DNA of 64,000 bases from Butyricimonas sp. Marseille-P3923 (GTDB taxonomy: Bacteria > Bacteroidota > Bacteroidia > Bacteroidales > Marinifilaceae), in assembly GCF_900184685.1 (NCBI RefSeq), contig NZ_FXXL01000007.1, forward strand, positions 310,001-374,000, given 5' to 3'. The translations under genes and the position numbers were made by a program. This document shows positions 1 to 12,592 of this stretch, piece by piece. The number at the start of each line of letters is the position of its first letter. The first letter of the stretch is position 1. Below the pieces are notes generated by a model. It saw only the letters and a program-made list of their open reading frames with translations, was not told the origin of the DNA and made no database searches.

Positions 1-1559
1 CCGGTCAGCTCGTGTCTTAATTCCGGAAGAATATTCCAAATGATGTTTCCCGTGATTTGGAATTTTGTGTTTTTGTTCTCGTTCCCGGTATGCTTCAATT
101 CATTCAGGAAATTGTATTGGATATCTCTATTAATTGCTGTAATGTCAGAAAGATAGAATTGAGCTTTTGACTCGTTTATCGTGTACCATTCATCGGAAGC
201 GATTGTTCTGCTGGTATTCAACGCATAATCTTCCGGGTTGACTCCCGTGTAGAAAGCGTTCGTTTCGGATTGACTGGCGGAGAATTGAAATTTTGTACGC
301 AGATTACTACGTAGTTTGGCATCCACGCTGAAATTGACGGTTTTGTTACTTTGGTCGTTGCCTTTGTAACTGCTCAACGATTTATTGAACCCCACGGAAC
401 CGTAGAAATTGATTTTGTCATTTCCACCGCTTAGGCTTAACGAGTAATTTTGGCTGACGGCATTACGAGCGAGTAGTTTGAACCAATCCGTGTTTTGTTT
501 TTCAAGACGGGTAACTTTTTCATTAAAATCCTCCATGGAGATTTCCTTGTTGATAAGTTGCAGGTAAGCACCCTCGTATCCGACATTTTGTGGAAATTTG
601 GTGAACGGGACTCCCGATTCGACGATCTCTTTAGACAAGGCTACTCTGTCGGCAGAGTTCATCCGGTCGGTTTGGCCGTACGTTCTTCTTGGGGTGACGG
701 AAATATCCGACCGGAAATTTACATTTATTTTTCCATTCGTGTTGGAACCTCTTTTGGTTGTGATTACGATAACGCCGTTAGCGGCTTTTACTCCATAAAT
801 GGCAGTGGCCGAGGCATCTTTCAAGAAAGTGATACTTTCGATGTCATCCGGGTTAAGACCGGAAATACTACTCGCGGAGATACTTGCCATAGAACTGCTC
901 AAGTCGCCCGAACTAAGGATGTCATTCAATTGTGCTCCGGCAAAAGGAAGAGGATCTTCTTGAATGATGCCGTCAATTACCCATACGGGAGAAGCGTTTC
1001 CGATTACGGTAGAAGTTCCCCGCACTCTTACTTGAGGTGCGGTACCGATAAGACCGGAAGGGATCGTGATACTGACTCCCGGGATCATGCCTTGGAGCGC
1101 CGCGTCTACCCGGTTGATACCGGCAATGCGGATATCATCGCCTTTCACGGTGTAAGTGGAACCCACGACTTCATGGCGTTTCAGTGTCTGGTAACCCGTG
1201 ACTACCACTTCCTCTATGGCTTGGGAGTCTTCTTTGAGAGTAATTTTGTAGGGAACTTGTTTTTGATTGACTATCACTTCTTGGGTTTTCATTCCCACGA
1301 ACGAGAAAACAAGCGTTGTTCCCTCCGGGACGGAAATCGTGAATTTTCCATCTTTATCGGAAAGTACTCCGACTCCTTTTTGTCCTTTTACGGTAATAGT
1401 GACAGACGGTAAAGTGACACTGGCTTCATCATAAATGGTTCCGGTCACTTTGACCGTGTTGTTTTGGGCGTGTACGATCCCCGATAGTGTAAACAACAGG
1501 ATAAATAATATCCGGGTTACAAGTTGTTTTATATATATCGATTTCATTTGAATTTTCAT
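1..1559 (-). CDS. SusC/RagA-type TonB-dependent outer-membrane protein, N-terminal part (runs off left edge)
   Basis: Reading the minus strand gives an open frame from ATG at 1559 to the window edge (about 519 codons). It begins with a signal peptide, then a carboxypeptidase-regulatory-like beta-sandwich (about residues 35-110, ending in the SusC-typical EEVVVTGYQ), then the plug domain with VRGTST, WVIDGI, LKDASATAIYG and NGVIVITTKRG. This is the standard order of a SusC transporter that imports oligomers with TonB energy. There is no STN domain, unlike its upstream paralog at 2662-6306. It starts 5 bases after the stop of the lipoprotein gene, so it is the last visible gene of the FecR-led operon. 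An alternative ATG lies at 1547. The substrate is unknown and no SusD partner is visible. Confidence 0.9.
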   Translation of the reverse strand, partial: MKIQMKSIYIKQLVTRILFILLFTLSGIVHAQNNTVKVTGTIYDEASVTLPSVTITVKGQKGVGVLSDKDGKFTISVPEGTTLVFSFVGMKTQEVIVNQKQVPYKITLKEDSQAIEEVVVTGYQTLKRHEVVGSTYTVKGDDIRIAGINRVDAALQGMIPGVSITIPSGLIGTAPQVRVRGTSTVIGNASPVWVIDGIIQEDPLPFAGAQLNDILSSGDLSSSMASISASSISGLNPDDIESITFLKDASATAIYGVKAANGVIVITTKRGSNTNGKINVNFRSDISVTPRRTYGQTDRMNSADRVALSKEIVESGVPFTKFPQNVGYEGAYLQLINKEISMEDFNEKVTRLEKQNTDWFKLLARNAVSQNYSLSLSGGNDKINFYGSVGFNKSLSSYKGNDQSNKTVNFSVDAKLRSNLRTKFQFSASQSETNAFYTGVNPEDYALNTSRTIASDEWYTINESKAQFYLSDITAINRDIQYNFLNELKHTGNENKNTKFQITGNIIWNILPELRHELT

Positions 1560-1564
1560 TTATA

Positions 1565-2584
1565 TTAATAAAGGTATTGCGGTGCAGCCTTGATATTTAA
1601 GGTAATGTATCCTTTTTTACCGGGCACGATTTCTTTCACTTGGTAAACGGCAACTTTGTGTTCCTTTTCCGTCGTGTTTGACGGCCAATTCAAGTATCTG
1701 TACATGGACATAATATAAATACCTTCCCAAGTGGGATGATTGGTTGCATTGCTACTTGTTGGATTACCGTAACTCGACAGATCCGTGGTGTATTGATATT
1801 CATCGATATATTTCGGTGAGGCATTGATTATATGTTGTGCGAATGTTATTCCGTTGATTTGTTCCAACGCCGGAATTTTATAAGAGGCCATCGCTTCAAA
1901 TGTGTTCGTGAGATTTAGCCAACTTGCTGTGTAACTTTGTACACCTGCTAGGGGGTACAAGTGTTGTTCTTGATAAGAGCTGGTTACTTCATCCTCTTCA
2001 CCATAGAAATAACATACATCGATGTGCAAAAGTTCTTCTAGGTTCATTTGGCGTACTTGTTCCAATGTAAATACTTCACCTGTGCTGATGTTTAGGAAAT
2101 TACCGTATTGAGTATTTCCTTGTGCGCCTAAAGTTACCGTGTAAGATTTTAACTCGTCCGCGATCAGAATTGTTATTGTTTTATTAATCAACTGTTTCGG
2201 TTGATTGTTGTCTTTGCAAACTACTTGAAAATTATACGATTGATAATGCGATCCTCTTTCCGGCAGATAGTCGTTGGCACAGAACGAGTAAGTGTATCGG
2301 TTTTTGTTTTGTAGTTCGGTCGAGTCCATCGTCAATGGAAAATCGGGTAAATACACTCCGGCATTGTCCTTGATATATAATTCTTGAATGATGCCTTGGT
2401 TCGCGATAAATTCCACGTCAACCGTGATTTCCTCGCCGGGTGCGACGATAATGGAATCTCTTTCGATGCCGTTTAATTTCACGACCAACCCCGGACGAGG
2501 AGGCAACTCGTGGAGTTCTTTTACGCATCCTTGACAGAGTGTCAGCAGGAGGCTAATGATTAACAGATAGTTTCTTGTTCTCAT
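1565..2584 (-). CDS. surface lipoprotein of unknown family in SusC operon
   Basis: A 339-residue protein starting at MRTRNYLL; the ATG at 2584 is chosen because the lipoprotein signal and lipobox (TLCQGC, Cys about residue 20) follow it directly, whereas the longer frame to 2632 would bury the signal. After the lipid-anchored cysteine comes a beta-rich region with PGEEITVDVEF, resembling an Ig-like or PKD-like fold, then a region without recognisable motifs. It lies between two SusC genes, where a SusD substrate-binding lipoprotein would normally sit, but it shows none of the SusD helical TPR-like pattern. A role as the surface-exposed binding or docking partner of the neighbouring SusC proteins is inferred from position only. 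Confidence 0.75.
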   Translation of the reverse strand: MRTRNYLLIISLLLTLCQGCVKELHELPPRPGLVVKLNGIERDSIIVAPGEEITVDVEFIANQGIIQELYIKDNAGVYLPDFPLTMDSTELQNKNRYTYSFCANDYLPERGSHYQSYNFQVVCKDNNQPKQLINKTITILIADELKSYTVTLGAQGNTQYGNFLNISTGEVFTLEQVRQMNLEELLHIDVCYFYGEEDEVTSSYQEQHLYPLAGVQSYTASWLNLTNTFEAMASYKIPALEQINGITFAQHIINASPKYIDEYQYTTDLSSYGNPTSSNATNHPTWEGIYIMSMYRYLNWPSNTTEKEHKVAVYQVKEIVPGKKGYITLNIKAAPQYLY

Positions 2585-2661
2585 AAAATTGGTTTTAAGG
2601 TTTAATAAATGATCTGATAATTTGTCTGTCATTAATTTGATTTTAGGTTTATATTCTTGGT

Positions 2662-5600
2662 TTAAAAAATAAATTCTGCACTGATGGAATAATTCCGTTG
2701 TCGCTTCATCGTCGGGGAATATGATTCGGCATTCATGTTCATGACTTCCGGATCTTGTCCTCGTAATCGATGATTCTTGATAATAAACGGGTTAGTTACC
2801 GTTATGCCGAGGTTGATATCTGCCACCCGGGTAATGCTTGTTTGATAATTCAGTGACATCCGATTGCACCGTAAGTGACTGGCGGAGACAACACGTGCCG
2901 TGCTCCGGTTGTACAATGAATAACGGTACACGGCGTTGTAATCCCCCAAACTCAACGAGTTATCCGGGAGATAAGCGGATATATCTTCATCGGTTATTTG
3001 CAATGCCGGGATATTCGTGAATTTCTCGTCTCCCGGTTGTTGCCAGCGGTTCAACAATTCGGTGGAAGCGTTTTGTGCGGCATTCGGGATGGCAAGCATC
3101 CCGCTGGCGTTACTCGTCATGAACGGGTTGAGTCTTTTGTAGTGCCCTAGTTGGTAATTGAACATGGCATTCAGCGAGAACCGCTTCCATCGAATAGTCG
3201 TGTTCAGTCCCCCGGACACGCGGGGTTCGCTGTCCCCGCTGTAAACAAGATAATCCAGTAGGGAACCGGACACTTTTTGCATTTCTCCACTGATCTGGTC
3301 TATGACCGAGAACAGGGGAGCCCCGTTCTTGGGGGATAACCCGATGAACGGGACAGACCAAAATCCGGATACGGGGAAGCCGTCCAAGGCGGCATTGCCA
3401 TTCGTGAAACGTTCAAGCATTGGTTCGTCGGTATAACTTTTTTTCAAAATGTCTTTCATGTAAGCCATCGTGAATGCAATATTCCAAGTCCAGTCACGAG
3501 TGGATACCGGGGTGGCTTTTATTTGTAATTCGTACCCTTCGCTGGCGATAGCCCCGCTATTGATGTACATTTTGCGGGAACCGTTCTCGATGGGAATCTC
3601 TTTCTCGACCACGATATCTTCGGTTTCTTTTTTGTAATAATCAAATGATATATCCAGTGTATTTTGGAGTAGAGACAAATCCAATCCCAAATTCCATGAT
3701 ATAGTTTTTTCCCATTTCAGATCGGGATTGGGCAATTGTTCCAATTGCAAGTAGTTTTCGTTCGTGATCGGATCGCTCGGGACATGACTGACTAATGCTT
3801 GCGGCGAAACGTTGGTAACGACGTTTCCCTGTCTGCCGTGGGAGGCTCGTAGGGTTGTTTCATTGATCCACGATTTTGACGGGAACCATTTTTCCCGGTG
3901 GATATCCCAACGGACTCCGGCAGACCACACGGGATAAAAACGATTGTTCGTGCGTTCCCCGAATCGATTGGAAGCGTCATTCCGGACGTTGATGCAGAGG
4001 GTGTAACGGCTGTCGTAAGTGTAGCCGATTGTCCCGTACAGGGAGAACGTGTTCTCCACCCTGTCGATTAGAGTCAGGTCGTGGTCGTCCGGCAAGGTAT
4101 TGTACGATTCTGCAAGTTCAGTGCCGGGGAAATAATCTTGTACCGATCGGAATCTTTCCGCCGCGGAGGTGTAGTCGTGCGTGAACGTCTTGTTTTTGCC
4201 CCGCTCGTATCCCCATTCGATACCTTGTTTCCCCGTGTATTTGTTTTCGCGTATTTCGACGCCGACGGTTGCTGTCAGAGAATGGTATACCGCTTCTCCC
4301 CACGTTTGCCGGAAATCCAATTGTCCTTTCAGCGTATAAGATTGGCGGGTATTTTTCATGTAATCGAGTACACCGCCCGAGGGAAGCGGACTGATATATG
4401 GTATCAGATCATCCACTTCACCGGAACTTGTAGTCCCGTAATCGGCACCTCGTAAAAGAGCCGCGTTCCATGAGCGAGCGTCAGCCCACAACTCGCTGTC
4501 ATTCGAGCCTTGAGACCATGCAGGGGTAACCGTCAGATTCAAATAGGGCAGAGGCTTCCACGTGAGATGGGCACCCAGATTTAATTCCGAGGTTTTGTTG
4601 TCATTGCCCGTGTATTCCAGTTCATGCAACAGGTTGAAATGAACGTCATTTCTGGTATATTGTAACACGCCATTTTTTCGGTATGATAATAACACCGCTT
4701 TTCCGTTCGAGTAAAATTGCTCTTTAGCGATCGCGCGACTCGTGGTTAAGGCGTATTGTTCGGGATTGATTCCCGTGTAGTAACCGGATGTCGTGATATG
4801 GTAACCGGAAATATGGAGCGCTAATTTTATTTTGGGGGATGAATTGAACTTGAAGTTCAACATTCCGGTGTAAGTGTTCCTGTCATTCCCGATATAGGAA
4901 CTGTTTTCTTTACGATACCCGAAAGAGGCGTAATAAGCCATTCCGTCTTTCCCGGAACTGAAATTCAAATGATAGTTTTGGCTAATCGCCGTGCGTCCCA
5001 ATGCTTTGAACCAATTAGTGTTCATTTTTTCAAGCCGGGTTACCTCTTCGTTAAATTCGGCATAGGAAATGTCTTTGTTGATCATTCTCAGGTATGCCGC
5101 TTCGTAACCGATCTCCCGGGGAAAAGCCGGCAAAGAGATACCTGTCTCGATGATTTCTTTCGATAGCTGTACGCGTTGGGCGGAGTTCATAACCCCGGTA
5201 TTCCTGTATGTCGGGATGGGACTGAACGTGATATCGCCACGGAATCTCACGGTAGGCCGTTGCTCGTCACCCTGTTTCGTGACGATGACAATCACCCCGT
5301 TCGATGCCCGGATTCCGTAGATTGCCGTGGCGGACACATCCTTCAACAAGGTGATACTGGCAATATCGTCAACATTGATACCCGAAAGATTGTTTCCCAT
5401 GATACTGGAGCGGGCTGAGTTTGTCAAGTCGTTGTTATTCAATAAGTCATATAACGAGTTGCGATCGAACGGCCAGATATTCTCCCGGATGATACCGTCT
5501 ATCACGATCAAGGGTTCCGGGTTCCCGACAATAGTGGAAGTGCCCCGGACTTTCATGCGTCCCGTGGCTCCTATATTCCCGGAAGGAATCATCACTTCCA

Positions 5601-6306
5601 ACCCGTTTATGGCTCCTTGGAACGCTGCCTCAAGTGACGTACTTCCCGGCGTGCGTATGTCTTTGCCTTTTACCGTGGAGGTCGCCCCCGTCATTTCATT
5701 CTTGGCGATCATCTGGTACCCGTTGACAATCACGTCCTTTACCTGCGACACGTCGTTCAAAAGAGTGATCCGGTAATCGGATTCGGGGGAAACGGGCGTG
5801 TAGTTCGTTTTCTTCCCCACGTGACTTGCGATCAGAATTGCCCCCGTGCCTTCCGGGATACGGAGGATGAAACATCCGCTTTTGTCGGCGACGGTGCCCC
5901 GTGTACTGCCTTTCACCAGAATCGTGGCGGAGGCAAGCGGGAATCCGTCTTCGTCCCGAACGATCCCGGTGATTGTACGCATGGAGGGGACTGGCTTTTC
6001 CTGCCGTTTCGTGATAATAATGGTTTGGTTGTAAACACGGAAAGTCAGAAAAGTCCCTTGCAGGCAATGCTCCAGAACTGCCTGTAATTCCATGTTATCA
6101 AGATTCACGGACTTTAGGGTTTGTATTTCTCTCACGTCTTCCATTTTGTACACCATATCGTGTTTTGTCTTTTTCTTTATCTTTTTTAGTATTTCTTCCA
6201 GTGTGGCATTCTTCACATGGATGCTGATTTTTTGAGCCCACGCTTCCCCGGAAGTCCCCAACAGGACTAACAAAAACGTCAGTAGCATAATTTTTTTCAC
6301 ACCCAT
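2662..6306 (-). CDS. SusC/RagA-type TonB-dependent transporter with STN signalling domain
   Basis: A 1214-residue outer-membrane transporter. Order: signal peptide (to about residue 24, AWAQ), STN domain (about 26-100, ISIHVKNATLEEIL), carboxypeptidase-regulatory-like domain (about 112-190), plug (about 200-350, with VRGTST, LIVIDGI, LLKDVSATAIYG), then a 22-strand-type barrel ending in the aromatic terminus SAEFIF. STN domains of such transporters contact a periplasmic FecR anti-sigma factor, and the FecR gene lies directly upstream (6427-7560). Substrate occupancy would then be signalled to the ECF sigma at 7963-8538. The plug is clearly paralogous to the SusC at the left edge. Substrate is not predictable from sequence; the linked TlpA proteins hint at a thiol-related or metal-related role, which is inference. 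Confidence 0.93.
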   Translation of the reverse strand: MGVKKIMLLTFLLVLLGTSGEAWAQKISIHVKNATLEEILKKIKKKTKHDMVYKMEDVREIQTLKSVNLDNMELQAVLEHCLQGTFLTFRVYNQTIIITKRQEKPVPSMRTITGIVRDEDGFPLASATILVKGSTRGTVADKSGCFILRIPEGTGAILIASHVGKKTNYTPVSPESDYRITLLNDVSQVKDVIVNGYQMIAKNEMTGATSTVKGKDIRTPGSTSLEAAFQGAINGLEVMIPSGNIGATGRMKVRGTSTIVGNPEPLIVIDGIIRENIWPFDRNSLYDLLNNNDLTNSARSSIMGNNLSGINVDDIASITLLKDVSATAIYGIRASNGVIVIVTKQGDEQRPTVRFRGDITFSPIPTYRNTGVMNSAQRVQLSKEIIETGISLPAFPREIGYEAAYLRMINKDISYAEFNEEVTRLEKMNTNWFKALGRTAISQNYHLNFSSGKDGMAYYASFGYRKENSSYIGNDRNTYTGMLNFKFNSSPKIKLALHISGYHITTSGYYTGINPEQYALTTSRAIAKEQFYSNGKAVLLSYRKNGVLQYTRNDVHFNLLHELEYTGNDNKTSELNLGAHLTWKPLPYLNLTVTPAWSQGSNDSELWADARSWNAALLRGADYGTTSSGEVDDLIPYISPLPSGGVLDYMKNTRQSYTLKGQLDFRQTWGEAVYHSLTATVGVEIRENKYTGKQGIEWGYERGKNKTFTHDYTSAAERFRSVQDYFPGTELAESYNTLPDDHDLTLIDRVENTFSLYGTIGYTYDSRYTLCINVRNDASNRFGERTNNRFYPVWSAGVRWDIHREKWFPSKSWINETTLRASHGRQGNVVTNVSPQALVSHVPSDPITNENYLQLEQLPNPDLKWEKTISWNLGLDLSLLQNTLDISFDYYKKETEDIVVEKEIPIENGSRKMYINSGAIASEGYELQIKATPVSTRDWTWNIAFTMAYMKDILKKSYTDEPMLERFTNGNAALDGFPVSGFWSVPFIGLSPKNGAPLFSVIDQISGEMQKVSGSLLDYLVYSGDSEPRVSGGLNTTIRWKRFSLNAMFNYQLGHYKRLNPFMTSNASGMLAIPNAAQNASTELLNRWQQPGDEKFTNIPALQITDEDISAYLPDNSLSLGDYNAVYRYSLYNRSTARVVSASHLRCNRMSLNYQTSITRVADINLGITVTNPFIIKNHRLRGQDPEVMNMNAESYSPTMKRQRNYSISAEFIF

Positions 6307-6426: not shown

Positions 6427-7560
6427 TTATTTATATACTCGGATTTCATTGCCTTCTTTTTTGAACTTTACTCCCGTCGCGAGGTGGAGTATTTTCAATA
6501 TCTCGTTATATCCTTTATCTCTTTGTATGGATATAAAGCATTTGATATCTTTTAATTCCGGGTTATCGAAAACAACATCCAGTGCGAAACTTCTTCCGAT
6601 GATGGTCATGATCCTTCCTAACTCGACATCCTCGAAAGCAAATTCGCCTCTCGTCCATGCTATCCGCTCTGCCGTATCCACCGAATCCACTTTCAAGATG
6701 TTTTCCTGTACATGGAAACAGGCTTGTAGCCCCGGTGTCAGTACGGTTGTTTGACCAAGCGTATCCGAAGGCGTATGGCAGGTAACGGCAACTTTCCCGG
6801 TAAGGAGGGTGGTTGTTGCCGTCGGATCGCCGGGATATGCAGTCATGTTGAACGTGGTTCCTAATACTTTCACGTTCATGACATTACTTTTGACAATGAA
6901 CGGGACACCGGAATGTGTTACCTCGAAGTAGGCTTCGCCGGAAAGTTCTACTACGCGGGATGCGTTGTCAAAAGTAGAAGGAAAAACAAGTGTGCTTCCC
7001 GCGTTCAGGTATACGTTTGTTCCGTCGCTTAATTGCAGCGAATATTCTGTTCCTTCCGGTACAATCAACTTGTTGGGAGAAGTAGAAGGGGAATCTTGTG
7101 CTTTTTGATAGGAAACTTTTCCCGCGTCGGAATTGATAATCCTTGTGCCGTTGTAATCCAGTTGCACTTGTCGACTCAAATCAACTTGACGTCCGTCGTC
7201 CAAGATGAGGTAGGCACTTTTTGCCATGAGTTCGGTCTTGCCCGTTGATGACCTTGTGCTTTGGTAAAGATAATAACCGATTCCGAATATCAGGAAACAA
7301 GCAACAGCGGCAACGTACTTGTAGAGCACGGGGAAGCGCCGTGCCGGACGGGTAGCGGAAATGAATTTCCGCAGAGCCTTTTCCGTGTCGAAGCTGGCGT
7401 GTAGCTTTATATTTTCGTGTAGCTGTTCGGGGATACCTACTTCCTCGTGCAGGTAGGGACTGTCGGGTGCCACCTGTTCCCAATTGCCTTTTGTCAAGGC
7501 TTCCTCGACTTGACGGGCTATCTCTTGGGCTTCTTTTATTTTATCTTCGACCTTTTTCAT
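6427..7560 (-). CDS. FecR-family anti-sigma factor
   Basis: A 377-residue inner-membrane regulator. The cytoplasmic N-terminal part (1-79) is charged and would hold the ECF sigma; one transmembrane helix follows (about 80-99, VAAVACFLIFGIGYYLY). The periplasmic FecR domain (about 155-260) has the typical LIVPEGTEYSLQLSDGTNV and LNAGSTLVFP pattern, followed by FEVTHS.VPFIVKS and VLGTTFNM. The C-terminal part (about 305-377) matches the DUF4974-type tail that docks to STN domains. The gene lies between the sigma gene (7963-8538) and susC (2662-6306), the classical order. The 402-base gap to sigma and a promoter-like motif at 7579-7609 suggest it has its own promoter rather than depending only on read-through. 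Confidence 0.93.
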   Translation of the reverse strand: MKKVEDKIKEAQEIARQVEEALTKGNWEQVAPDSPYLHEEVGIPEQLHENIKLHASFDTEKALRKFISATRPARRFPVLYKYVAAVACFLIFGIGYYLYQSTRSSTGKTELMAKSAYLILDDGRQVDLSRQVQLDYNGTRIINSDAGKVSYQKAQDSPSTSPNKLIVPEGTEYSLQLSDGTNVYLNAGSTLVFPSTFDNASRVVELSGEAYFEVTHSGVPFIVKSNVMNVKVLGTTFNMTAYPGDPTATTTLLTGKVAVTCHTPSDTLGQTTVLTPGLQACFHVQENILKVDSVDTAERIAWTRGEFAFEDVELGRIMTIIGRSFALDVVFDNPELKDIKCFISIQRDKGYNEILKILHLATGVKFKKEGNEIRVYK

Positions 7561-7578: not shown

Positions 7579-7609
7579 AAAACAACTGACATAAGGAAAG
7601 TGTCTAAAA
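7579..7609 (-). promoter_or_regulatory. putative ECF-sigma promoter motif upstream of FecR gene (copy A)
   Basis: On the minus strand the sequence reads TTTTAGACACTTTC, 5 other bases, then GTCAGTTGTTTT, ending about 18 bases before the FecR start. The same bipartite motif, with the same 5-base spacing, lies on the plus strand at 8594-8624 in front of the TlpA operon. Only one of the 26 fixed positions differs. Two copies pointing away from the sigma gene between them suggest the recognition site of that ECF sigma. Function is inference. Confidence 0.6.
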
Positions 7610-7737
7610 GGAATGGTGTTTTTTTGTGATTTTTAAATTTGCGTATAGGAATAACTGTACATTATTATAGGTAATCCCCGCTAGAACTTACCCGTGACGG
7701 GGATATTATTTACCATTTTTTTATAGTTCAGTGGGAG

Positions 7738-7770
7738 ATACTTCTATCATACTTCTATCATACTTCCATG
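7738..7770. repeat. three tandem 11-bp repeats in the 402-bp gap between sigma and FecR genes
   Basis: ATACTTCTATC occurs at 7738-7748 and 7749-7759, followed by a variant ATACTTCCATG at 7760-7770. The gap 7561-7962 also holds a 7-bp inverted repeat (7674-7680 with 7694-7700) and the promoter-like motif at 7579-7609. I see no gene in the gap. Confidence 0.6.
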
Positions 7771-7962
7771 AAACTCCTATAACAATAAAAAATATTGTAT
7801 TTTGTTTGTAATTGGATTGTTGTTCTTTTAAATTATTCCCCATGTAGGTGTCTTGTCGCGGTAAAATAAAGGTAGTATATTCACGGGAATACTTCAGTTT
7901 TACATGTGAAAGTCCAAGCGGAGTGTTTGTTTTTTTGAGAGAGAACAAGTGGTTGTCAGGGA

Positions 7963-8538
7963 TTAGTGTGTCTGTTGCATAAAGAGGATGAACAGGGCGT
8001 ATAATTCGGGCGACACTATTTTTTTCAAAAGGGCGATACCCCGTTGTTTTTGGGATCTCACGGTGCTGGATGAGGCTCCTGTCAAAGTAGAAATTTCCGT
8101 GCTGTTGTATCCTTGCATCACGAGTTCCATGATTTTGGCGCATTCCGCGGGGAGTTGACGGATATAGTCGGACAGGAGGCTGATGATTTCCGTTTCTACG
8201 ATGGTGTTCCACGTGTTCTCTTCCGTTTCTTTCGGTTTTTGGGTTTGTGCGTGTTCAAGCACTATATTGTGATGTTTGATGTAATTTAAACAACTGTTGC
8301 GGGCGGAGAGATAGAGGTATGATTTCAGCGCCAAGTAGTTTTCAAAATGATTATTTTTTTCCCATAAACGTACAAATATGTCTTGGGCTATGTCTTCGGC
8401 AACGTCCATGTCTTTCAATATTTTGCCGGCGTAATAGGCAATATCTTGAAAGTATTCCCGGAACAAGAGTTGAAATGCCTCGTGGTTTCGTGCATTCAGT
8501 CTGTTCAAAAATGTTATATCTGTTTCGGATGATTTCAT
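7963..8538 (-). CDS. ECF RNA polymerase sigma factor (locus 1)
   Basis: A 191-residue sigma-70 family protein of the ECF type found with FecR and SusC in Bacteroidota. Region 2 (about 15-85) carries AFQLLFREYFQDIAYYAGKIL, DVAEDIAQDIFVRLWE; region 4 (about 125-180) carries the helix-turn-helix MQGYNSTEISTLTGASSSTVRSQ. It recruits RNA polymerase to promoters controlled by the FecR at 6427-7560. It stands between two oppositely directed operons (FecR/SusC and TlpA), both preceded by the same bipartite motif. A TAAGTTTG box at 8546-8553 sits so close to the start that the transcript would be almost leaderless. Confidence 0.95.
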   Translation of the reverse strand: MKSSETDITFLNRLNARNHEAFQLLFREYFQDIAYYAGKILKDMDVAEDIAQDIFVRLWEKNNHFENYLALKSYLYLSARNSCLNYIKHHNIVLEHAQTQKPKETEENTWNTIVETEIISLLSDYIRQLPAECAKIMELVMQGYNSTEISTLTGASSSTVRSQKQRGIALLKKIVSPELYALFILFMQQTH

Positions 8539-8545
8539 ACCGATG

Positions 8546-8553
8546 CAAACTTA
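8546..8553 (-). promoter_or_regulatory. Bacteroides-type -7 box for ECF sigma gene
   Basis: Minus strand reads TAAGTTTG, matching TAnnTTTG. A partial -33 match (ATTG) lies at 8577-8580, slightly far. Transcription would start about 3-5 bases before the sigma ATG, so the mRNA would be nearly leaderless if this box is used. Confidence 0.45.
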
Positions 8554-8593
8554 TGGATTTTTGTGCTATTTTGTATCAATTGGTGGGAAAAAC

Positions 8594-8624
8594 TTTTAGA
8601 CACTTTCACGGGGTGAGTTGTTTT
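8594..8624 (+). promoter_or_regulatory. putative ECF-sigma promoter motif upstream of TlpA operon (copy B)
   Basis: TTTTAGACACTTTC (8594-8607), 5 bases, then GTGAGTTGTTTT (8613-8624), about 40 bases before the first TlpA-like gene. It matches copy A at 7579-7609 in both halves and spacing while the 5-base spacer differs, which argues for selection on the halves. No TAnnTTTG box is seen before this operon. Confidence 0.6.
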
Positions 8625-8664
8625 TAGGATGTGACAGATAAATCAACCTTAAAACCAAATTTTG

Positions 8665-10032
8665 ATGAAGTACTTGTTATTTTGTTGCCTGTTTATCGGG
8701 CTTTTTTCCACGGGGCAGGGGCAACCGGCACGTGTGAAACTGGACGTGAAAAGTGATTGTATCGTGAATCACGAGGAAAAGCGTTATGAATTAAAGGCGG
8801 GGGATACATGGGATGTCGTGCTGGAGGGGATGCCGTGTTACGGGGAGGTGTTTCGGGTGAATTTCCACGATTATTATTTTTTTCTTTGCCCGGGGGAGTG
8901 CTTGGAAATTGTTTTAAAAGAGAACAAACGAGTGGAAGTGAAAGATGACGGGAGTTTGTGTGCCGAACGGAATTTGTTCCTTCACGAGATGGCGGGTTTC
9001 CAGCAAGAGTTTTATTATGCCAAGGCGGTGCCGGAATTGGTATCTGAGAGTGTACGAGATCTGACGCTGGATGGCGTGTGTGATACATTGCACGCTCGTT
9101 TGGAACGTTATCTAGGGATGCACCCGGGGGAGGCGAAAGATTTCGGGAAAGTTATTCGCACGGAATTGAAGTATTACCGGATGTATGAAGCTTGTGGAGC
9201 GCGTGGAGGGAGGAGAACGTTTTATGAATTTCCGGGGGAGGTGTTGCAACAGTTGGCGGAAGTGATTCCGGATTCCAAGGATAAGCGGGTGATCTGCTCT
9301 CCGACTTACTGGAAGGTGTTGAAGGTTTATACCGATTATTTAAGGGTGGAGGATCCTCGCCGATTGTTGGGACCCGGGCGGCAGATGTACGAGAATGAGG
9401 TACGGCTGGCGAAGTATTATGCCGCGAAAGAGATAAGGGAGCGGCTCGTGTACGAGAATTTTCTTGATGTTTTGTACTGGGTGAAACCGTATGAACGAGA
9501 GAGCGTGGAGAAATGTATCCGGCGTTTGCCTTCCCGTTACGCGGAGTTTATCCGGAAGAATTTGGACAAGCAGGATGTTTCCCGGGCGAAGCGAAAATGG
9601 GTAATGCCGGGATGTGTCGTGGAGTTGTCGGGGGAGGACGTGAACGGGGAGGAGGTGAGATTGTCTTCTTTCCGGGGTTTTTGGATATTTTTGGATGTAT
9701 GGGCAACATGGTGTGGGCCGTGTAATAGCGAGATACCCTATTTGAAGAAGATGGAGGAAAAGTTGCGGGGAAAGAACATCGTGTTTGTGTCTTTGTCGGT
9801 AGATAAGACGGCTGATCGGGAGAAGTGGAAGAATTTGCTCCGGGAGAAGAAAATGGAGGGCGTGCAGTTGCGTTGGAACGGGCGTGCCAAAGGGGTACAC
9901 GAGATGTTGGGTATAACGGGAATACCGCACTTCGCGATCGTTGACCCGGAAGGGGTGTTGAGATGGAATAATTTGCCTTTCGTGTCGAGCGGTTTGATTT
10001 ACCGGATATTACGCGAGGTGGGAGATAAATGA
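8665..10032 (+). CDS. TlpA-like thioredoxin-fold protein, secreted (1 of 3)
   Basis: A 455-residue protein with an N-terminal signal peptide (MKYLLFCCLFIGLFSTGQGQ), a long central region without recognised domain, and a C-terminal thioredoxin/TlpA domain (about 315-455). The redox site is WCGPC at residues 349-353, and the cis-proline loop is TGIPHF. Such proteins reduce or isomerise disulfides in the periplasm or on the cell surface. The ATG at 8665 is used; a TTG one codon earlier is less likely. It is the first of three TlpA-like genes with short spacing (14 and 8 bases), divergent from ECF sigma 1 and preceded by the motif at 8594-8624, so it probably belongs to the same regulon as the SusC transporters. 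Confidence 0.87.
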   Translation: MKYLLFCCLFIGLFSTGQGQPARVKLDVKSDCIVNHEEKRYELKAGDTWDVVLEGMPCYGEVFRVNFHDYYFFLCPGECLEIVLKENKRVEVKDDGSLCAERNLFLHEMAGFQQEFYYAKAVPELVSESVRDLTLDGVCDTLHARLERYLGMHPGEAKDFGKVIRTELKYYRMYEACGARGGRRTFYEFPGEVLQQLAEVIPDSKDKRVICSPTYWKVLKVYTDYLRVEDPRRLLGPGRQMYENEVRLAKYYAAKEIRERLVYENFLDVLYWVKPYERESVEKCIRRLPSRYAEFIRKNLDKQDVSRAKRKWVMPGCVVELSGEDVNGEEVRLSSFRGFWIFLDVWATWCGPCNSEIPYLKKMEEKLRGKNIVFVSLSVDKTADREKWKNLLREKKMEGVQLRWNGRAKGVHEMLGITGIPHFAIVDPEGVLRWNNLPFVSSGLIYRILREVGDK

Positions 10033-10046
10033 TTTTTTAATTTTAA

Positions 10047-11135
10047 ATGAACAGGATGAAAAGTATTATATTATTCATTGGATGTTACGTGTGGTTACTG
10101 GTGGGGTGTTCCGCCCCGTCTTATCGTTTAACGGTTTCGATTTACGGGAATGGTAGCGTGCCGGGGGATACGGTTTATTTGTTCGGGTTTGACGGGCAAA
10201 GTTATGAAAGGCGGGATTCTGCCGTGTTGGATGAACGGCAGCAAGTTGTTTTCACGGGAGAGTTTTTGGCGCCTGTTTGCGTGGCGATAGGCGTGAAGGG
10301 GAAAGGTGCATCAACTGATTTTATATTAGACACGACGGAAATGTACGCTTATAATGTTTTATTGCACGGGAAACCTGATTTTTTTAATTCAAGCGGTTAT
10401 CGGTTTACACGACGGGATATGGTCGTGGATGGGGGACGGGAGTCTGATATTTTGAGTGCTTATCGTGCAATGGAACGTATGTTTCTTGCCCGGAATGCTT
10501 TTTACCGGGAAGTTTCCGTGAAGAACGAGATGTTTTTGGATATGATCGAGGAGAACCCGGATTCATGGGCACTAGTGATGATATTGCACGATATCAAGGA
10601 GCGTTTCTCGTTGGAAATGTTAGGAAAAGCTTTAGAGATGTTTACCGGAGAAGACATACGGGAAGATGTTTTTTATAAAAGGATAGCGACTTACCGGGAA
10701 AGAGAGTTGAAAACGGTGATCGGTGCCGTGATACCTGATTTTGTTTTGCCCGGGGAGGATGGCGAGAAAGTTTCTATCGCGGATTACCGGGGAAAATACG
10801 TGTTGATAGACTTCTGGGCATCATGGTGCGGGCCCTGCATGGGCGAGTTGCCTAACGTGCGGAAGGCTTACGAACTTTTACATGACAAGGGACTGGAAGT
10901 GGTAACCATTTCTACCGACCAGAAAGAGGGTGCGTGGAAAGAGGCGTTGCGGAAAAAACAAATGGATGTTTTCATGAATTTGCATGACACGGAAGATGTG
11001 TTGAGCCAATTTTTTAACCGGACGGCTATACCGTTTATTTTGTTGCTTGATCCGGAAGGACGGATCATTGCCAAAGAGTTGAGAGGGGAAGATATTTATA
11101 ATGTTCCCCGGAAAGCGATGAGTACTAATCTATAA
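10047..11135 (+). CDS. TlpA-like thioredoxin-fold lipoprotein with DUF4369-like N-terminus (2 of 3)
   Basis: A 362-residue lipoprotein: lipobox WLLVGC at about residue 21, then an N-terminal beta-rich domain (about 28-120) with the GDTVYLFGFDGQSYERRDSAVL pattern typical of DUF4369 domains on Bacteroidota thiol-disulfide proteins (partial quote only). The C-terminal TlpA domain (about 225-355) carries DFWASWCGPC with the redox cysteines at 261 and 264, VTISTD, and cis-proline TAIPF. Probably a membrane-anchored thiol-disulfide oxidoreductase facing the periplasm. It lies 14 bases after the first TlpA gene and 8 bases before the third. Confidence 0.88.
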   Translation: MNRMKSIILFIGCYVWLLVGCSAPSYRLTVSIYGNGSVPGDTVYLFGFDGQSYERRDSAVLDERQQVVFTGEFLAPVCVAIGVKGKGASTDFILDTTEMYAYNVLLHGKPDFFNSSGYRFTRRDMVVDGGRESDILSAYRAMERMFLARNAFYREVSVKNEMFLDMIEENPDSWALVMILHDIKERFSLEMLGKALEMFTGEDIREDVFYKRIATYRERELKTVIGAVIPDFVLPGEDGEKVSIADYRGKYVLIDFWASWCGPCMGELPNVRKAYELLHDKGLEVVTISTDQKEGAWKEALRKKQMDVFMNLHDTEDVLSQFFNRTAIPFILLLDPEGRIIAKELRGEDIYNVPRKAMSTNL

Positions 11136-11143
11136 ACAAGTGA

Positions 11144-12592
11144 ATGATGGAAAAGATAAAATATTGTATTTTGTGCGGAATCATGTTGGTCGTGATGGTG
11201 GTTCGCGGGCAACGCGTAGAGATTCTCTATCAAGGGGATGAGCCGTTGTGGATTTCTGAACAATATCAGTTCGTGTGGGATAAAATGGTGCCTTTGTCTT
11301 TCGAGAACGGGCGGGCGGTTTATGATGTCCGTTATGCACCCAAGGTATTGAGGTTGGCGACCGAGTCCGGGTTTTCTTCCGTGTTCTTTGTCGGAGAAAA
11401 GGAGCGGGTGACGGTTGCCGTGGAAACAGTGGAACCATTGAAAGTGGAGATACGAGGGGATGTGGCAGGTGTGCTTTATTACGAGATCAACACGATAACG
11501 GAACAATACACGAGAGAGAAACTTGCTTTGGCAGAAAAGTATATGAATGGGTGGTTGGCGAAAGACCAGAATACGCTGGATAGTATTGAAGATATGCTTC
11601 AGGAATTAAGACGTCAACGTGACGGGGAGTATGGCGAGGTGATTCAACGGGCTTTCGGGAAAGGACGGTTGTGGGATATATTAGTGGTAGCGAATATGCC
11701 CTTGAGTTTGAAGCACAAGGTGGTTCAAGAATTGGGGGAGAAAGGATACAAGATTCCGGGACGGGTTACAAGTCAATTGGATTTGTACACGAAAATTTAT
11801 ACACCCGAATATGTTTATTGTAATTTGTACTATCCTTATGCGTGGGGCGGGGAATTGAATACTTTGGCTTTGGAAGATGAGAGGGGGAGTGAGTTGGTAC
11901 GGAAGGTGAGAATGTTGATGCAACAAGAATATTATAATACGGTGTGTAATCGGATTGAGGAACCGACTACTTTGGAAGATTTAAGAAGTGCGTCCGGATT
12001 GATGGATTTGAATGATTATGTAGGAGTACACATGGAGTTGCCCGTTCGGGTGAAACGGGATACCTTGTTGGATAAGTTGACCGGGCGCATGGAAAAGATG
12101 TATCGTACCCGGTTGACGGGTATGATGCACGAGTTCGTGTCTAAAACGCCCGAGGGAAAGACCGTTCGTTTGTCAGATTACCGGGGTAAGTATGTTTTGC
12201 TTGATTTTTGGGCGTCGTGGTGCTCTCCCTGCCGGGGATTGACTCCGAAAATGAAGATGTTACACGAGAAATATCATGTGACGGGGAAGTTTGATATTAT
12301 CGGTATATCCAAGGACGAGGATCGCGGCAAGTGGCTTAAGGCTTTGGAAGAAGAAAATGTGTCGTGGGATAATATCCGGATGAAAGAATGCGTGGTGGAA
12401 AATCCCGTGCAATTCGAGTCCGTTACCGGGATTCCCCGTTTGGTACTGGTTGGTCCCGACGGTACCGTGATATTGGATATCAGCGGGGGTGATCATTGGG
12501 ATCAGCTCGTCGGGACTTTAAAAAAATTGTTGGATACTACTCCACGTACAACACCAAACCTTTCAAATACTCCCCTTCCGGGTGATAAATAG
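11144..12592 (+). CDS. TlpA-like thioredoxin-fold protein, WCSPC variant (3 of 3)
   Basis: A 482-residue secreted protein: hydrophobic signal segment at residues 5-22 ending in RGQ, a long middle region (about 25-330) of unknown fold, then a TlpA-type domain with VRLSDYRGKYVLLDFWASW and active site WCSPC at 359-363. The usual glycine between the cysteines is replaced by serine, which generally shifts the redox potential; the effect here is inferred. Cis-proline loop is TGIPRL. It closes the three-gene TlpA operon and is followed by a strong intrinsic terminator at 12687-12721. The start could be either of two adjacent ATGs. Confidence 0.86.
   Translation: MMEKIKYCILCGIMLVVMVVRGQRVEILYQGDEPLWISEQYQFVWDKMVPLSFENGRAVYDVRYAPKVLRLATESGFSSVFFVGEKERVTVAVETVEPLKVEIRGDVAGVLYYEINTITEQYTREKLALAEKYMNGWLAKDQNTLDSIEDMLQELRRQRDGEYGEVIQRAFGKGRLWDILVVANMPLSLKHKVVQELGEKGYKIPGRVTSQLDLYTKIYTPEYVYCNLYYPYAWGGELNTLALEDERGSELVRKVRMLMQQEYYNTVCNRIEEPTTLEDLRSASGLMDLNDYVGVHMELPVRVKRDTLLDKLTGRMEKMYRTRLTGMMHEFVSKTPEGKTVRLSDYRGKYVLLDFWASWCSPCRGLTPKMKMLHEKYHVTGKFDIIGISKDEDRGKWLKALEEENVSWDNIRMKECVVENPVQFESVTGIPRLVLVGPDGTVILDISGGDHWDQLVGTLKKLLDTTPRTTPNLSNTPLPGDK

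Follow-up and report, generated by a model that had tools for sequence, protein, structure and literature searches.

In Escherichia coli, the fecI and fecR genes lie on one transcript. The FecI/FecR/FecA system is composed of an ECF sigma factor, its anti-sigma factor and a TonB-dependent transporter with an STN domain, and no target promoter of its own stands ahead of the sigma gene. SigI belongs to a different sigma family. In cellulolytic clostridia, SigI forms a paralogous set of sigma factors that is described as controlling degradative systems (PMC6056542). Rhodius et al. (2013) left out six FecI-like subgroups as not autoregulating (PMC3817407), and the residue code of Todor et al. (2020) was built on autoregulated ECF sigma factors, as summarized in a review (PMC8103513).

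Gut Bacteroidetes carry from tens to more than 100 ECF sigma factors, and 50 are reported for B. thetaiotaomicron (PMC12596196). The promoters described for this species, namely PM2 (PMC7366714) and those of SigW-1 and SigH-1 (PMC12596196), possess -10/-30 elements. The accessible parts of these two papers present one shared non-canonical motif, and they describe no sigma-specific spellings or residue code. EcfO of Bacteroides fragilis, an oxidative-stress ECF sigma factor with an identified recognition motif, is cited in PMC7366714 and is, like the sigma factor treated here, a Bacteroidetes ECF sigma factor. Among the matches listed from the open-access literature, no title or opening part of an abstract described promoter spellings for individual FecI-like sigma factors of Butyricimonas.

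We analyzed a stretch of 64,000 nucleotides of a Butyricimonas genome, which we call the window. The features of the locus are as follows.

Positions 1 to 1547, minus strand: N-terminal part of a second TonB-dependent receptor (PF13715, PF07715), extending past the window edge.
Positions 1565 to 2632, minus strand: 355-aa protein whose N terminus looks, by eye, like that of a lipoprotein; without a family match, syntenic in 4 genomes.
Positions 2662 to 6306, minus strand: SusC/RagA-type TonB-dependent transporter of 1214 aa with an N-terminal STN domain (TIGR04056, 557.6 bits; PF07660, PF07715).
Positions 6427 to 7560, minus strand: FecR-like anti-sigma factor of 377 aa (PF04773, PF16344), its gene next to that of the sigma factor.
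Positions 7963 to 8538, minus strand: FecI-type ECF sigma factor of 191 aa with sigma-70 regions 2 and 4 (PF04542, PF08281).
Positions 8546 to 8553, minus strand: TAAGTTTG box before the sigma ATG, resembling the -7 element of the Bacteroidetes primary sigma factor and invariant in 4 genomes.
Positions 8665 to 10032, plus strand: TlpA/AhpC-TSA thioredoxin-like protein 1 with WCGPC (profile matches).
Positions 10047 to 11135, plus strand: TlpA/AhpC-TSA thioredoxin-like protein 2 with WCGPC, 14 nt past gene 1.
Positions 11144 to 12592, plus strand: thioredoxin-like protein 3 with WCSPC, 8 nt past gene 2.

Matches to Pfam and TIGRFAM profiles confirmed the calls that an earlier note on this DNA had made for the sigma factor, FecR, SusC and the three TlpA-like proteins. 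The sigma factor matched PF04542 and PF08281 only; that is, it consists of regions 2 and 4 alone. Against the NCBIfam model TIGR02985 (Bacteroidetes sigma-70 subfamily) it scored 118.0 bits, under the curated cut-off of 126.4. The locus resembles FecI/FecR/FecA in its set of ECF sigma factor, FecR-like anti-sigma factor and STN-bearing transporter, and may also resemble it in having no target promoter ahead of the sigma gene. In contrast to FecI/FecR/FecA, the predicted target promoter stands ahead of FecR, in the 402-nt gap between the end of the sigma gene and FecR, the anti-sigma factor would belong to the induced operon, and a second predicted target operon encodes putative thioredoxins. 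This gap, together with the promoter-like motif close before FecR, argues against the sigma factor and FecR sharing one transcript, although read-through could still join them.

The earlier note had proposed that a bipartite motif flanking the sigma gene is a promoter specific to this sigma factor. Its coordinates and strands were exact, and the blocks that we propose within it are listed below.

Positions 7579 to 7609, minus strand: motif copy 1, on the FecR side.
Positions 7606 to 7595, minus strand: proposed -35 block of copy 1, TAGACACTTTCC, with an 8-nt gap to the -10 block.
Positions 7586 to 7575, minus strand: proposed -10 block of copy 1, GTTGTTTTATTC, from the promoter-class model, ending 14 nt before the FecR ATG.
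Positions 8594 to 8624, plus strand: motif copy 2, on the TlpA side.
Positions 8597 to 8608 and 8617 to 8628, plus strand: proposed -35 and -10 blocks of copy 2, by analogy with copy 1, the -10 block ending 36 nt before the first TlpA-like ATG.

As had been claimed, the halves of the two copies differ at one base (GTC against GTG). The 5-base spacers, CTTAT and ACGGG, are unlike at 5 of 5 positions. The pattern TTTTAGACACTTTC-N5-GTSAGTTGTTTT occurred 2 times in the 64-kb window at 0 mismatches, and none of 100 dinucleotide shuffles of the window gave a match even with up to 3 mismatches allowed. When the 5.3-Mb genome was scanned with the 31-mer at up to 3 mismatches, these 2 places only were found; at the same limit, loci 2 and 3 of the window lacked the motif, as had been noted, and no copy in the window was directed at the sigma gene. 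A search of both intergenic regions for repeats gave a 13-nt pair only, and a plasmid search with the locus gave no match. Within the motif, TAGACACTTTC probably acts as the -35 block and GTTGTTTTA as the -10 block. The TGTT reported for SigW-1 at about -10 (PMC12596196), in a motif given as not significant, may be compared with GTTGTTTT of the locus motif. Two other -35 registers were considered by eye and set aside: a gap of 6, giving G at position 0, because it has weight 0 in the promoter class described below, and a gap of 9, because it puts A at the commonest C.

Homologues of the sigma factor were searched in 59 genomes, our own (G000) included, with a cut-off of E<=1e-40. A match was present in 5 of the 59. 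Those of G001, G003 and G005 are close orthologues (82-86% identity), while the sigma factor of G010 is only 43% identical. Our own genome and the three with close orthologues share the same gene order, namely the TlpA-like genes, the divergent sigma gene, FecR, SusC and the lipoprotein-like gene. Comparison of the same intergenic regions, which the earlier note had suggested, revealed both motif copies in each of the 4 genomes that have a close orthologue of the sigma factor, and the sigma segments NYIKHH and SSSTVRSQKQRG are identical across these 4. G002 and G004, of the same genus, had no sigma match at E<=1e-40 and no core site at up to 2 mismatches. In G010, too, a search allowing up to 2 mismatches gave no core site, and none was seen by eye at its locus L007. 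Six same-genus genomes were also scanned with a relaxed 27-nt pattern, up to 3 mismatches being allowed. Each of the 4 sigma-bearing genomes gave exactly two sites with 0-1 mismatch; the remaining 19 matches had exactly 3 mismatches each, and a reversed-pattern control also gave 19. Six further core matches with 2 mismatches (in G003, G005, G023, G033, G035 and G054) were taken as background, because the five loci viewed (L008, L012, L014, L015 and L021; not L013) lay inside long reading frames; the reversed-pattern control gave 11. On the FecR side, 23 of 26 half-site columns were invariant in the 4 genomes, against 58 of 372 in the remaining intergenic region. On the TlpA side the values were 21 of 26 and 71 of 97 in the surrounding region, a contrast that is small because the whole region is conserved.

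To place the motif among other promoters of the genome, we considered the regions upstream of FecR genes. The Bacteroidetes ECF sigma model gave 135 matches at E<=1e-5 in the 5.3-Mb genome, and the FecR C-terminal model gave 146, some of them within SusC-sized frames. The same sigma model gave 62 matches in G007, 30 in G014 and 19 in G040. The FecR C-terminal profile also matched the N-terminal STN part of SusC-type receptors (L131 3-686 and several SusC-sized frames of our genome), which hints that the FecR C-terminal and STN signalling domains are related.

The genome stretches retrieved contained 111 distinct FecR genes. Within 3 kb upstream of these genes, the closest sigma gene was on the same strand in 95 cases, on the opposite strand in 10 and not in view in 6. 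The upstream regions showed an A-tract, then TCACCC-N-TTTT, a gap, and then K-GT-GT-N-TTA. Among the 101 FecR promoters with a posterior of at least 0.5, the gap was 9 nt in 71 and 8 nt in 16, and the promoter ended 13-24 nt before the FecR ATG in 70. A first motif run with 14 starts converged on the A-tract plus CACCC. The second run was started from the by-eye consensus, and its two-block model reached a log-likelihood of 408 versus 93-118 in 3 Markov controls likewise started, with 25 iterations versus 40. A score above 5 was obtained in 80 of the 111 FecR upstreams, which are the training set, in 4 of 121 sigma upstreams and in 24 of 555 randomised sequences. The TAnnTTTG box, quoted in PMC7366714 as the consensus of the Bacteroidetes primary sigma factor, showed the opposite distribution: it was found in 79 of 121 sigma upstreams (randomised mean 12.5) and 5 of 111 FecR upstreams (randomised mean 10.3). 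Sigma genes and FecR operons therefore appear to use different promoters. The locus motif had a score of 4.1 and a posterior of 0.83; its gap is 8, against the usual 9, and the ATG follows after 14 nt. It is a weak member of the class, below the threshold of the above counts, because of its unusual spelling. To judge by its sequence, the motif does not stand alone but belongs, in a divergent spelling, to a promoter class found throughout the genome.

In order to relate promoters to sigma factors, we used the 77 of the 111 FecR promoters that had a sigma gene within 600 nt, a gap of 8-10, at most 60 nt to the ATG and a posterior of at least 0.5. In Mantel tests, which like the mutual-information tests take paralogues as exchangeable, region 4 correlated with the -35 block (rho 0.255, p 0.001, above all 999 permutations), and region 2 correlated with the -10 block (rho 0.129, p 0.006; largest permutation 0.153). 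The cross terms were uncorrelated (region 4 with -10, rho -0.09; region 2 with -35, rho -0.06), and partial Mantel tests were concordant (0.267 and 0.145, p 0.002 each). Among 4,032 column couplings, the strongest were residue 85 with -10 position 2 (z 18.4) and residue 88 with -10 position 1 (z 18.0), followed by residue 166 with -35 position 0 (z 12.1) and by residue 162 with -35 position 1 and residue 158 with -35 position 3 (z 7.4 each). Of the top 25 couplings, 20 pair region 4 with -35 or region 2 with -10.

The two strongest couplings can be read as a residue-to-base relation. At residue 85, Asn goes with T at -10 position 2 (36/39), Asp with C (14/14), Lys with G (6/7), Ser with C (6/6) and Thr with A (4/5). 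At residue 88, Lys goes with T at -10 position 1 (19/22), Arg with G (36/49) and Glu with C (4/4). In leave-one-out prediction, which ignored sigma factors at least 45% identical and so corrects for kinship partly, 66 of 71 bases were correct for residue 85 (majority rule, 38), 57 of 73 for residue 88 (majority rule, 36) and 47 of 64 for residue 166 (majority rule, 15). For residues 162 and 158 the prediction was no better than the majority rule (56/64 versus 58/64 and 47/61 versus 49/61). We also applied the code to three other genomes, with sigma loci from 30 of 62 matches in G007, 30 of 30 in G014 and 19 of 19 in G040. These contained 54 FecR matches and 42 FecR/sigma pairs, of which 25 scored above 5 and 22-23 were covered by the code, the 17 low-scoring pairs being excluded. 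The pooled results for residues 85, 88 and 166 were 19/22, 17/22 and 17/23, versus 15/22, 10/22 and 6/23 by majority rule. This support came mostly from G007, of another genus of the same family (14/15, 14/15 and 11/15); G040, of another family of the same order, gave 2/3, 1/3 and 2/4. Two -10 bases, it seems, can largely be predicted from the two region-2 residues, and this extends to a second genus of the family.

The sigma factor of the locus has Asn-85 and Lys-88, for which the code predicts T and T. This pair was present at 8 of 8 sites, the copies in the window included, and occurs in 14 of the 77 promoters. Arg-166 is an exception to the code: G is predicted at -35 position 0 (23/26), and T is present. 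Residue 85 aligns with the last Asn of NTAKN in region 2 of a solved ECF sigma factor, and residue 88 adjoins a gap. In structures of Mtb SigL, region 2 is described as recognizing the -10 element with flipped bases (PMC6372665); we infer from the co-variation which promoter positions residues 85 and 88 would read. The two-block promoters, the separable readers of -35 and -10 and the residue-to-base relations are like those described for the autoregulated ECF sigma factors of Rhodius and Todor. In contrast to the promoters in the described maps of those factors, the Butyricimonas promoters are located before FecR.

We then compared the 101 promoters of posterior at least 0.5 with the few kilobases around each. 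A second copy matching at 20 or more of 24 positions was present in the own locus for 6 of the 101, versus 7 of 11,091 promoter-by-other-locus comparisons; the remaining 95 had no such copy within the surrounding few kilobases. The six loci, each separately spelled, are the locus in the window, L111, L071, L121, L100 and L088. In L121 the second site precedes a thioredoxin-like gene, which an aminotransferase gene follows; in L100 it precedes a TlpA-like gene, in L088 a subtilase-like gene and in L111 a gene without a family match. L088 also has, at 1956-3077 and downstream of its private second site, a Fic-domain protein gene that separates the subtilase-like gene from FecR. In L071 (1912-1946), one copy of the pair is directed at the sigma gene, and this locus appears to be an exception that is autoregulated. 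L131 possesses a weaker pair (17/24), on its FecR and SusC sides.

We regard it as highly likely that the adjacent FecI-type ECF sigma factor reads the motif as a -35/-10 promoter, with FecR/receptor signalling and two target operons. The two copies are very probably start sites recognized by this sigma factor. The proposal of a sigma-specific promoter defining one small regulon is supported by the co-occurrence with the sigma gene, the FecR-promoter-like position and the domain-wise co-variation across paralogues. Most of the sequence tests agree with the promoter reading, and the low class score, the Arg-166 exception and the small conservation contrast on the TlpA side do not. The promoter might instead be real and common to several of the approximately 100 sigma factors, so that crosstalk leaves no single regulon. 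The shared frame of A-tract, CACCC/TTTT and GT-TTA would allow this, but matches of 20/24 at other loci were as rare as given above, and G002 and G004, which lack the sigma factor, gave no core site within 2 mismatches; we think such sharing unlikely. A separate repressor or activator governing both divergent units is much less probable. A dimeric regulator would also leave a shared bipartite site at two starts, but the halves are, by eye, neither inverted nor direct repeats of one another, the position relative to the FecR ATG equals that of the paralogous FecR promoters, and in those promoters the halves vary together with regions 4 and 2 of the sigma factor. Two copies some 1 kb from each other and oppositely oriented would suit a recent local duplication, or a mobile or structural repeat that does not act as a promoter; such an origin is hardly credible, because the spacers are wholly unlike while the halves are kept in 4 genomes, and pairs of other spellings exist at five more loci.

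On the reading of the motif as a promoter of the adjacent sigma factor, the locus may work as follows. The sigma factor would be made from a housekeeping-type promoter and kept inactive by FecR. When the SusC-type receptor binds its substrate, its STN domain would cause FecR to let the sigma factor go, and the free sigma factor would guide RNA polymerase to two promoters, region 4 reading the -35 half and region 2 the -10 half. Promoter 1 would drive FecR, SusC, the lipoprotein-like gene and the second receptor, and promoter 2 the three TlpA-like thioredoxins. Since FecR lies within the predicted induced operon, induction would replenish the inhibitor, a negative feedback. Receptor activation, release of the sigma factor by FecR and feedback through induced FecR are predicted here from knowledge of FecI/FecR systems. 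Many of the approximately 100 paralogous sigma/FecR systems would have a variant spelling of their own, which would limit crosstalk.

The locus would thus tie three thioredoxin-like proteins to one uptake system, and thioredoxin-like genes also stand behind the second sites of L121 and L100. The same genome appears to carry about 100 such regulators with related but individually spelled predicted promoters. We think it fairly likely, with less assurance than for the locus itself, that one Butyricimonas genome has about 100 parallel FecI-type channels whose private spellings are set by a few sigma residues. Residues 85 and 88 would fix the bases immediately preceding the invariant GT of the -10 block, and residue 166, with 158, 162 and 165 as less certain partners, would act on the -35 block. 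With promoters ahead of the anti-sigma gene rather than the sigma gene, each channel would have built-in negative feedback, and the code would predict targets of uncharacterised ECF sigma factors of gut Bacteroidetes. Because the promoters stand before FecR and the residue-to-base relation can be tested, sequence-based assignment of targets becomes possible.

Two further elements were observed. ATAAATCAACCTTAAAACCAAA, at window positions 8638-8659, lies between the predicted TlpA-side promoter and the ATG of the first TlpA gene; it does not vary among the 4 genomes compared and is possibly a leader or translation signal. The 27-mer AAAAACTTTCCTGTCATAAGTTTTTTT, which has complementary ends, lies at G000:C3:50950-50976 and is identical in G000, G001, G003, G004 and G005 with 1-3 copies each; it is perhaps a terminator or the end of a mobile element.
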